Source of the DNA: Gammaproteobacteria bacterium
Lineage (GTDB): Bacteria > Pseudomonadota > Gammaproteobacteria > Steroidobacterales > Steroidobacteraceae
Length of the DNA stretch: 51,234 nucleotides
Direction: 5' to 3'
Assembly (NCBI GenBank): GCA_025359565.1
Contig: JANYFY010000004.1
Location: forward strand, 1-51,234
Each line of letters starts with the position of its first letter. The stretch's first letter is position 1. Below are positions 32,070 to 34,181 of this stretch, in pieces. The position numbers and the translations under genes were made by a program. Under the pieces are notes generated by a model. It did not search any database and was not told the DNA's origin. It saw only the letters and a list, made by a program, of their open reading frames with translations.

Positions 32070-34181
32070 TTGAATAAAAGACTGGCCTTTAAACTTGAAG
32101 CGACCGCCTCAGGCTCGCGCGCTCGTGCCGGACGTTTCACCACGCCGCACAACGAAGTGCTCACACCGACCTTTATGCCCGTGGGAACTCATGCGGCCGT
32201 GCGCGCGCAACGGCGTGAAGATCTGCTGGCGAGCCACGTGGACGTCCTATTAGCGAATACCTACCATTTATTGTTAAGGCCTGGCTTAAAAATATTTGAG
32301 CAATTTGGCGGCATTCATCATTTCATGAATTGGCCACGCTCGGTGCTCACAGATTCAGGCGGCTTTCAAATTTTCTCGCTGCCCGGCAGCCGCACGATGC
32401 GTGAGGAGTGCGCCGAATTTAAAAGCTACTTAGACAATACGCTGATTCAACTAAGCCCCGAAAAAAGCATAGAAGCGCAGAAAACCATCGGTGCCGACAT
32501 CATGATGGTATTGGATCAGTGCGTTCCATCGACGGTAGAGCATAGCGTGGCGCGCGCTGCGATGCAGCTCACCCATCGATGGGCACAGCGCAGCCTTGCG
32601 GCGCGTGGTGACTCACCGCAGGCCTTATTTGGAATTGTGCAAGGCGCTAGTTACGAGGATCTTAGAGTCGAGAGCGCTCAAGTCATCACCGACATGCCCT
32701 TTGACGGATTCGCAATAGGAGGCCTCGCAGTCGGTGAAACGAAAGCGCAACGCGAAGACTGTACGGCCACGGTCACCGAACACTTACCCGAAGACCATCC
32801 ACGTTATTTAATGGGAGTGGGCACCCCACGCGATCTACTAGAAGCAGTGCATCGCGGGGTCGATATGTTTGACTGTATTCTCCCCACAGCGCTTGCCAAA
32901 CAAGGCGTGGCATTCACTCGCCACGGTCGGCTGGACCTCAGGCGCGCCGCTTACCAAGGTCGTGAAGCATCTCTCGATCCATTATGCGATTGCTATACGT
33001 GCAAAACCTATTCGATCGCTTACTTATGGCATTTACAACGAGTGCACGAAACACAAGGTTGGCAGCTTTTAGGGTTGCACAATATTCATTTTTATATGCA
33101 TCTGATGCGCAGAATGCGTACCAATATTTTGGGCGGCACATGGCTGGAGTTTTATACGCAACAACGCGAGTTGTTAGATGCTAGGGATGGCTACGGTCCA
33201 CCCGTCACGCATGTTACCAAAGCCACCCGTCGCTTGAGGAACCTAAAACGCGGGCGCTACGAAGTTGTGATACCGCATGGCGGTGTTCGCGGTGACAACG
33301 CTCGCGCTGCGGTAGGCCACATTCGCGATATGATTTCCGGTGAAGTCATGCACTCGGTAAACGATCCGACTGAAGAAGCGCTATCACTTTATGTGGAGCA
33401 ATCGCGTCTGATACAGCGGCTCGAGCCAGAACCACCGGCAGTAGATCCGCTACTAGTAGGGCGATCAGCGCCGAGGCCAATCGTGGTCTGGGACGTAGGT
33501 CTCGGGGCCGCAGCGAATGCCATGGCGGCAATAACCAGTGTCGAAAATAAACTGTCGCAGGCAGCGTATCCACGAGACTCATCCAAAGATGCCCGCGCCG
33601 CGCGAGTTAAGCTGCGGCTAATCAGTTTCGAAAACGATCTGGACGCCCTCACTCTAGCTCGCGCGCACCCGCGCTGGTTTAAGCATCTGCGCCATCCCGC
33701 ACCGGCTGAGCTATTGGCAAAGCATGAGTGGCGCAGTAAGGACGGCAGTATTGAATGGTTATTGCTAGCGGGGGATTATGCAAAACGAAAATTTGCCGCA
33801 CCAAAGGCGGATATTATTTTCTTCGATCCCTTCTCGTACAAAACAGATGCCGCCCTCTGGTCACTGACCGAATTTCAGGAGCTACACAGTCTATGTCAGC
33901 ACACGGCTACTGAGATTTTTAGCTACACGTATTCCACCCGGATCCGCGCTGCAATGCTAGCCGCCGGTTTTTACGTTGCCAAAGGCCGAGCGACGGGACC
34001 TAAGGCTGAAACGACTATTGCCTTATCGCCAATGGCTGCCGCTGCACCGCATGCTCACGAGCTATTAGGGACCGAGTGGCTTCACAAGTGGCAGCGTAGT
34101 GATGCAAAAATTCCCTGCGGAGCCGATGAGCACGATACAGGATGGGAAACCGCGATCTACGAGCACCCGCAGTTTCGCTAG
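32070..34181 (+). CDS. tgt: Fusion of tRNA-guanine transglycosylase (Tgt) with an MnmC-like methyltransferase domain
   Basis: The protein has 703 residues in one uninterrupted frame. Residues 1-380 are a full bacterial-type Tgt, which swaps G34 for preQ1 in GUN-anticodon tRNAs. The proton-acceptor Asp D95 (TDSGGFQ), the nucleophile D268 (MFDC) and zinc ligands C306, C308, C311 and H337 are all present, at spacings identical to E. coli (D89, D264, C302/C304/C307/H333). Residues about 393-700 are a DUF752/MnmC(m)-like SAM methyltransferase: [35 protein letters not shown] (motif I), ISFEND (acidic end of strand 2), [10 protein letters not shown] and [18 protein letters not shown]. The start is a TTG without a visible ribosome site. 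It is not beside queA or yajC-secDF, where gammaproteobacterial tgt usually lies. The fusion suggests coupled modification of the wobble base. Confidence 0.88.

Follow-up and report, generated by a model that had tools for sequence, protein, structure and literature searches.

A gene encoding a Tgt joined to an MnmC2-type methyltransferase was identified in the window, the whole stretch of 51,234 nucleotides that was analysed. The fusion is a real gene family: it was found in 12 distinct copies including that of the window, of which ten are complete and two (L035 and L141) are truncated by contig ends. The protein is tentatively proposed to be a two-step RNA-modifying enzyme, which would insert preQ1 into RNA and then N-methylate it. 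This is the function that we find most plausible.

The fusion gene and its two domains

The sequence-only reading had described one uninterrupted frame carrying both enzymes, and this holds. The gene is a single open frame of 703 aa without internal stop, and both domains were recognized by Pfam. Its parts are as follows:

32070..34181 (+), Tgt-MnmC2-like fusion gene: 703 aa, TTG start, stop codon included; the architecture recurs in 12 distinct records.
32118..33161 (+), Tgt domain, residues 17-364: Pfam TGT 1e-134; catalytic D95/D268, zinc set C306/C308/C311/H337; preQ1-pocket residues kept, several canonical-invariant positions changed.
33162..33311 (+), linker, about residues 365-414: the window copy has an insertion compared to the other gammaproteobacterial copies of alignment A1.
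33312..34034 (+), MnmC2-type SAM-dependent methyltransferase domain, about residues 415-655: E425, G477/G479, E521, D586, F588, W597, K645.
34035..34178 (+), C-terminal extension, about residues 656-703: HPQF/HAQF motif near the end, conserved in the fused clade.

No frame break, which would have spoken against the fusion, was found near residue 385, and an assembly or frame artefact was rejected as the source of the fusion in view of its recurrence. The TTG start is uncertain, because no obvious ribosome-binding site was seen by eye in front of it and the frame is open for 20 more codons upstream (open frame of 723 aa). An Rfam search of the upstream region gave neither a preQ1 riboswitch nor any other match, and riboswitch control by preQ1 was rejected on this basis. 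An alignment of upstream DNA likewise revealed nothing. Downstream, a perfect 8-bp inverted repeat (GACCCAAC/GTTGGGTC, found by eye) is located at 34196-34216, in the gap where the fusion and an rluD-like gene converge, and is possibly a terminator common to the two. The AlphaFold model of the full-length protein, with a mean pLDDT of 44.2, was too poor for use.

The Tgt domain scored 449.5 bits with Pfam TGT (cut-off 26.3), and the window protein scored 427.2 bits with TIGR00430 (cut-off 306.75). The catalytic Asp pair, of which the position of D95 was counted by hand, and all four zinc ligands are present, just as had been read from the sequence alone. For closer comparison, the 12 fused copies were aligned with the E. 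coli enzyme and 34 canonical Tgts, namely 28 from the order (27 best-scoring canonical loci plus that of the window's genome), three from alphaproteobacteria, two from Firmicutes and one from Enterobacter. In two of the alphaproteobacterial rows (L113 and L114) no zinc ligands are seen in the aligned columns; these rows are probably misaligned or different there. In E. coli numbers, D89, D143, C145, Q187, L215, V217 and E219 are kept in all ten scorable fused copies, M244 and D264 in 11 of 11, and the zinc ligands C302, C304, C307 and H333 in all 12. Judged by sequence context, C145 and V217 are the counterparts of Z. mobilis Tgt residues Cys158 and Val233, which are reported from a mutational study to set the choice between preQ1 and queuine (PMC3660597). 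The complete set of preQ1 specificity residues, Cys158, Val233 and Glu235 in Z. mobilis and C145, V217 and E219 in E. coli, is kept in 10/10 scorable fused copies, with roles as given in the same report (PMC3660597).

Several positions that are invariant in the canonical Tgts were found to be changed in the fused copies. R270, an Arg in 34/34 canonical enzymes, is replaced in all 11 scorable copies (A 6, S 4, V 1), and E144, equally invariant (34/34), is replaced in all ten (Q 8, H 2). R273, also present in 34/34, is kept in only three of 11 copies (K 5, R 3, A 2, Q 1). By offset, we take R270 to be the equivalent of Z. mobilis Arg286, and R270 and R273 presumably contact the anticodon loop. 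Arg286 is described as lining a cavity that connects the ribose-34 and phosphate-35 pockets in the twisted dimer (PMC5395182). At the position of K285 all 11 fused copies have Asp, and a K285D mutant of E. coli Tgt is reported to lose the covalent tRNA intermediate (PMC13416341). The canonical enzymes vary at this position (R 12, N 11, K 9, V 2); K285, Y35 and T146 were weakened as diagnostic sites, as all three vary among canonical Tgts too, although contacts with tRNA are described for K285 and Y35. The fused Tgt half appears to have retained its chemistry, and its grip on RNA may have changed. The idea of retargeting is a soft one, since the RNA contact of R270, R273 and E144 is presumed or only indirectly supported.

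Identity to E. coli Tgt is 43-47% in six fused copies (45% for the domain of the window protein) and averages 63% in 29 canonical Tgts, 28 of them from the order. In a tree, five fused rows formed a clade of their own (100/100), apart from the gammaproteobacterial, alphaproteobacterial and Firmicutes Tgts used; the program gave a long-branch warning for this tree, from which the truncated L035 and six later copies were left out. An origin as a recent duplicate of the local canonical tgt is not supported by this separate clade.

The C-terminal half had been read as an MnmC-like methyltransferase, and this domain call holds. Methyltransf_30 (PF05430) matched residues 536-652 with an E-value of 4e-11 (43.3 bits, cut-off 22) and was matched at E <=0.01 in all six members of alignment A1. 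The MnmC2 model NF033855 covered residues 424-651 with 50.7 bits for the whole window protein and 53.5 bits for the C-terminal half, below its cut-off of 136. A profile of the six fused methyltransferase domains of A1 had Aquifex MnmC2 (3vyw, E 7.2e-14) as best PDB match, followed by E. coli and Yersinia MnmC. The AlphaFold model of this domain, made with four sequences, had a pTM of 0.71 and a mean pLDDT of 68.7; its nine best Foldseek matches were all MnmC2 or MnmC, with modest TM scores near 0.5.

An alignment was made with MnmC N-domain rows from the matches in the class and phylum samples, chosen by their likeness to the fused profile. Without L069, which is fused, and L025, a fragment, 51 of the 53 rows passed on were used (L020 and L048 being one place). 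The fused methyltransferase aligned with them over the whole domain; together with the PDB profile matches, this rejects a chance domain match. D586 (MnmC Asp178), E521 (Glu101) and K645 (Lys236, matched by counting along the PDB-profile alignment) are present in 51/51 MnmC rows and in all 12 fused copies, which also keep G477/G479 (Gly66/Gly68), F588 (Phe180) and W597 (a Trp) without exception. A study of MnmC proposes Asp178 as the base activating the nm5U amine, has Glu101 holding the ribose of SAM and counts Lys236 among the RNA-binding residues (PMC3648344). The GExxHS motif is common to the fusion and Aquifex MnmC2; E425 in place of MnmC Asp26 was dropped as a special feature, as Aquifex MnmC2 likewise has Glu there. 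Other residues are changed in comparison to MnmC2, namely F24 to S423, F67 to L478 and G70 to A481, while P182 corresponds to residue 590 and is F in eight, L in two, Y in one and S in one of the fused copies. Phe24, Phe67 and the 66-70 loop are placed at the SAM site, and Pro182 is listed as SAM binding, in the MnmC study (PMC3648344).

Genomic context, distribution and selection

The host genome (3.14 Mb, 98.35% complete) encodes a canonical tgt at G000:C17:92246-93334, adjoining queA. A second, canonical tgt had been suspected from the position of the fusion alone, and is present in all three sampled genomes with the fusion (G000, G041 and G111). QueF and MnmE are encoded in the host genome as well. 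A PF05430 search of this genome detected no MnmC besides the fusion, and the sole other match, at the cut-off with 22-23 bits, was in a frame of 280 aa that NCBIfam weakly matches to polyamine aminopropyltransferases. In the order sample, PF05430 matched in 13 of 107 genomes. The order at large seems to be without MnmC, as nothing in it except the two fusion genes scores higher than 26.5 bits.

Some side observations were made in these searches. G000 has MnmE, yet MnmC seems to be absent from most sampled genomes of the order (n=107), which puts completion of mnm5U34 in question. Weak PF05430 matches were given by L004 (G000:C33:54839-55033) and similar frames of 278-311 aa in the order; L004, the one examined, had weak NCBIfam matches to polyamine aminopropyltransferases, and such frames are a possible source of false MnmC calls. 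In G108 (C208:16954-17941), the tgt match is split between two frames, in pieces that overlap and of which one contains a TGA; this is either a frameshifted gene or an assembly error.

The spread of the fusion was assessed in samples of Pseudomonadota and in one scan of genome contigs with six exact 8-residue peptides. The fused proteins differ pairwise by at least 6%, the closest pair being 94% identical. Seven further genomes of the window's genus carry the fusion, as do two sampled genomes from another family of the same order. It was also found in three named MAG records, Steroidobacter sp. TY_HY_2_bin.4, Gammaproteobacteria Centralia_MAG_79 and Deltaproteobacteria MGR_bin64, with names as given in the records. 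G945, one of the genus relatives, and the Centralia record are one and the same, their stretches agreeing in every letter, and MGR_bin64, by its own label a deltaproteobacterium, is the only record outside Gammaproteobacteria in which the fusion was seen. With the window's genome counted in both, the fusion is present in 3/196 sampled genomes of the order and in 8/23 of the genus; in the family of G041 it is present in 2/40. This patchy distribution shows that the gene is dispensable. In the class sample (369 genomes) and the phylum sample (398 genomes), only the window's own copy reached a family-level score. The other matching genomes, 23 in the class sample and 52 in the phylum sample, scored at most 28.1 and 50 bits, respectively; most of these weak matches are frames of bifunctional MnmC length, as checked for part of them.

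Mobile elements gave no fused match. None of the 69 matching plasmid records covered 80% of the query, no match was found in phage records, and a pattern-limited scan of viral contigs gave no fused match. Carriage of the fusion by plasmids, phages or viruses was rejected accordingly. PADLOC gave no match that would link the fusion to a defence system, and the one match in PHROGs (E 0.052) was meaningless.

Comparison of the flanks revealed no neighbour gene that is conserved across the whole fused clade. Flanking genes are common only within the pairs L140/L141, L144/L145, L010/L011 and L139/L143, plus a short stretch in L139/L140, and the flank DNA of the window had no match to any other fusion locus. 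A conserved partner gene was rejected, as neighbours are common only to pairs of relatives. A cluster of histidine kinases at four loci was rejected as well: the kinase is a true common neighbour in L140/L141 only, and those of the window and L011 differ in domains. In the window the fusion has rluD as neighbour, while in all seven fusion-bearing relatives of the genus the best rluD match is on another contig. The eight flanking genes of the window fusion that were checked are housekeeping or pentein genes. The latter are two adjoining pentein-type genes at 29599-31367 (-), one DDAH-like (PF19420, E 5e-87) and one arginine-deiminase-like (PF02274, E 3e-7), which adjoin a gene matching PF02578, presumably of the YfiH/PgeF type. 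Elsewhere in the window, two tRNA genes, Arg (ACG) and Ser (GCT), are located close together at 3779-4013 (-). In L010 and L011, the fusion copies of genus g34 (94% identical), a DUF1838 gene adjoins the fusion.

Both halves of the fusion are under purifying selection. An estimate of dS was obtained for seven of ten pairs, and in these dN/dS was much lower than 1 for either domain. The dN and dS values for L140/L142 were 0.060/1.32 (Tgt) and 0.138/1.39 (methyltransferase), and those for L144/L145 were 0.065/1.05 and 0.186/1.16, respectively. These ratios are rough, as dS exceeded 1 in six of the seven estimable pairs and was not computable for three pairs with the window sequence.

Proposed function and alternative explanations

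MnmC2 is described as methylating the amine on the aminomethyl arm of a base (PMC3648344), and preQ1, the base inserted by bacterial Tgt, bears such an arm (PMC10639084). N-methylation after insertion of preQ1 is the simplest function for the fusion for this reason. The Tgt half would cut guanine out of an RNA loop by means of its Asp nucleophile D268 and insert preQ1 (7-aminomethyl-7-deazaguanine). The MnmC2-like half would then use SAM to methylate the free amine, as MnmC2 does on nm5U34, and the product would be 7-(methylaminomethyl)-7-deazaguanosine (N-methyl-preQ1). The capped amine would probably stop QueA from extending the base to queuosine, and N-methyl-preQ1 would stand beside the Q made by the canonical Tgt and QueA of the same cell. 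The preQ1 substrate, the methylation of its amine, the order of the steps and the RNA target are inferred. Because positions invariant in canonical Tgt are changed, the target RNA, or the mode of holding it, may differ from that of the four GUN tRNAs. The sequence-only reading had set Tgt to work on G34 of GUN anticodons; its identification of the enzyme stands, and this substrate has become doubtful, given the changes at R270, E144, K285 and often R273. Of its three ideas for the fusion, namely channelling, a new methylated queuosine-type product and a common tRNA surface, the methylated product is favoured, as preQ1 bears the kind of amine that MnmC2 methylates.

The presence of QueF, which makes preQ1, of queA and of a canonical tgt in the genome supports the preQ1 reading. 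Several observations speak against it: the Tgt half passes TIGR00430 as an ordinary Tgt and 3/11 copies keep R273, the MnmC2 score is low (50.7 bits, cut-off 136) with changed active-site neighbours, no preQ1 riboswitch is located upstream, and the distribution is patchy. The low score and the changed residues near the active site could also mean that the methyltransferase has another acceptor altogether.

In comparison to known systems, the fusion is like bacterial Tgt (TIGR00430, PF01702) in its family models, nucleophile, second Asp, zinc ligands and preQ1-pocket residues, but lacks R270 and E144, has Asp at the K285 position, has a second enzyme attached and forms its own clade. Its other half resembles MnmC2/DUF752, also called MnmC(m), which stands alone in Aquifex and forms the N-terminal half of E. 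coli MnmC, in whole-domain homology and in the equivalents of Asp178, Glu101, Gly66/Gly68, Phe180 and Lys236. It differs by its score below the curated cut-off and by the replacement of F24, F67, G70 and P182, and, unlike in E. coli-type MnmC, it is joined to Tgt instead of the FAD oxidase MnmC1. MnmM (YtqB), a Gram-positive nm5U methyltransferase, is described as having the same type of acceptor, an aminomethyl amine at wobble position 34; it is poorly homologous to MnmC(m) and, as described there, a separate protein that is not fused to Tgt (PMC9976899).

The methyltransferase half could simply be the MnmC2 of this lineage, converting nm5U34 to mnm5U34, with the Tgt half serving as an anticodon-loop binding module or working separately on GUN tRNAs, so that only the anticodon loop would be common to the two. 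The genome has MnmE and no other detected MnmC-like protein, and the catalytic residues of MnmC2 are kept. We nevertheless consider this explanation unlikely: MnmC seems to be missing from relatives without the fusion as well (13/107 order genomes match PF05430, at <=26.5 bits besides the two fusions), the neighbours F24, F67, G70 and P182 in the active site are changed, and the intact Tgt active site under strong purifying selection is unlike that of a mere scaffold. Rather little credence is given to a Tgt half that is a second, redundant maker of ordinary preQ1/Q34, in which case the methyltransferase would act on an unrelated acceptor and the fusion would only couple expression. Its preQ1 pocket and zinc site are indeed normal, fusions need not have a common substrate, and the two activities of bifunctional MnmC are described as independent (PMC3648344). 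A redundant Tgt would have no need of clade-wide changes at the R270, E144 and K285 positions, however, and all 12 copies are fused, with no separate form seen in the genome samples searched.

Modification of DNA or of an RNA other than tRNA, with a methylated preQ1-type base as product, would have a precedent in DpdA, the DNA-guanine transglycosylase of phages and bacterial islands, which is a Tgt relative acting on another nucleic acid (PMC6884629). The changes at R270 and E144, both invariant in canonical Tgts, fit such a shift. Methylated deoxy-preQ1 has reportedly been found in phage DNA by Cui et al. 2023. We regard this explanation as very unlikely. The Tgt half stands close to the bacterial enzyme, with 45% identity between its domain and E. 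coli Tgt; it passes TIGR00430, and NCBIfam searched at E up to 1 gave no DpdA model for it. No dpd-type cluster is present among the eight flanking genes checked, and the fusion had no match in PADLOC, in phage records or in the pattern-limited scan of viral contigs.

Returning to insertion and N-methylation of preQ1, the fusion might produce a new RNA nucleoside, N-methyl-preQ1. A Tgt paralogue with a new target and an N-methyltransferase of the MnmC2 type would make it together in one protein, on an RNA or anticodon set other than the GUN tRNAs. Such a nucleoside would branch off the queuosine pathway, with the cap added ahead of the QueA step; we hold this wider proposal to be possible and somewhat doubtful. 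The part of a 2020 review covering the natural ribonucleosides of this family lists preQ0, preQ1, oQ, Q, GalQ, ManQ, GluQ and G+, with no N-methyl-preQ1 among them (PMC7694415). Neither a Tgt-MnmC fusion nor N-methyl-preQ1 was named in the titles and abstract openings of the literature searched, which mostly lay outside subscription papers.

This protein brings together two wobble-base pathways, those of queuosine (G34) and mnm5U (U34), and from the chemistry a definite product of known mass can be predicted. If the grip on RNA has really changed, the fusion would show how the specificity of Tgt for UGU loops can shift, which bears on Tgt-based RNA labelling.
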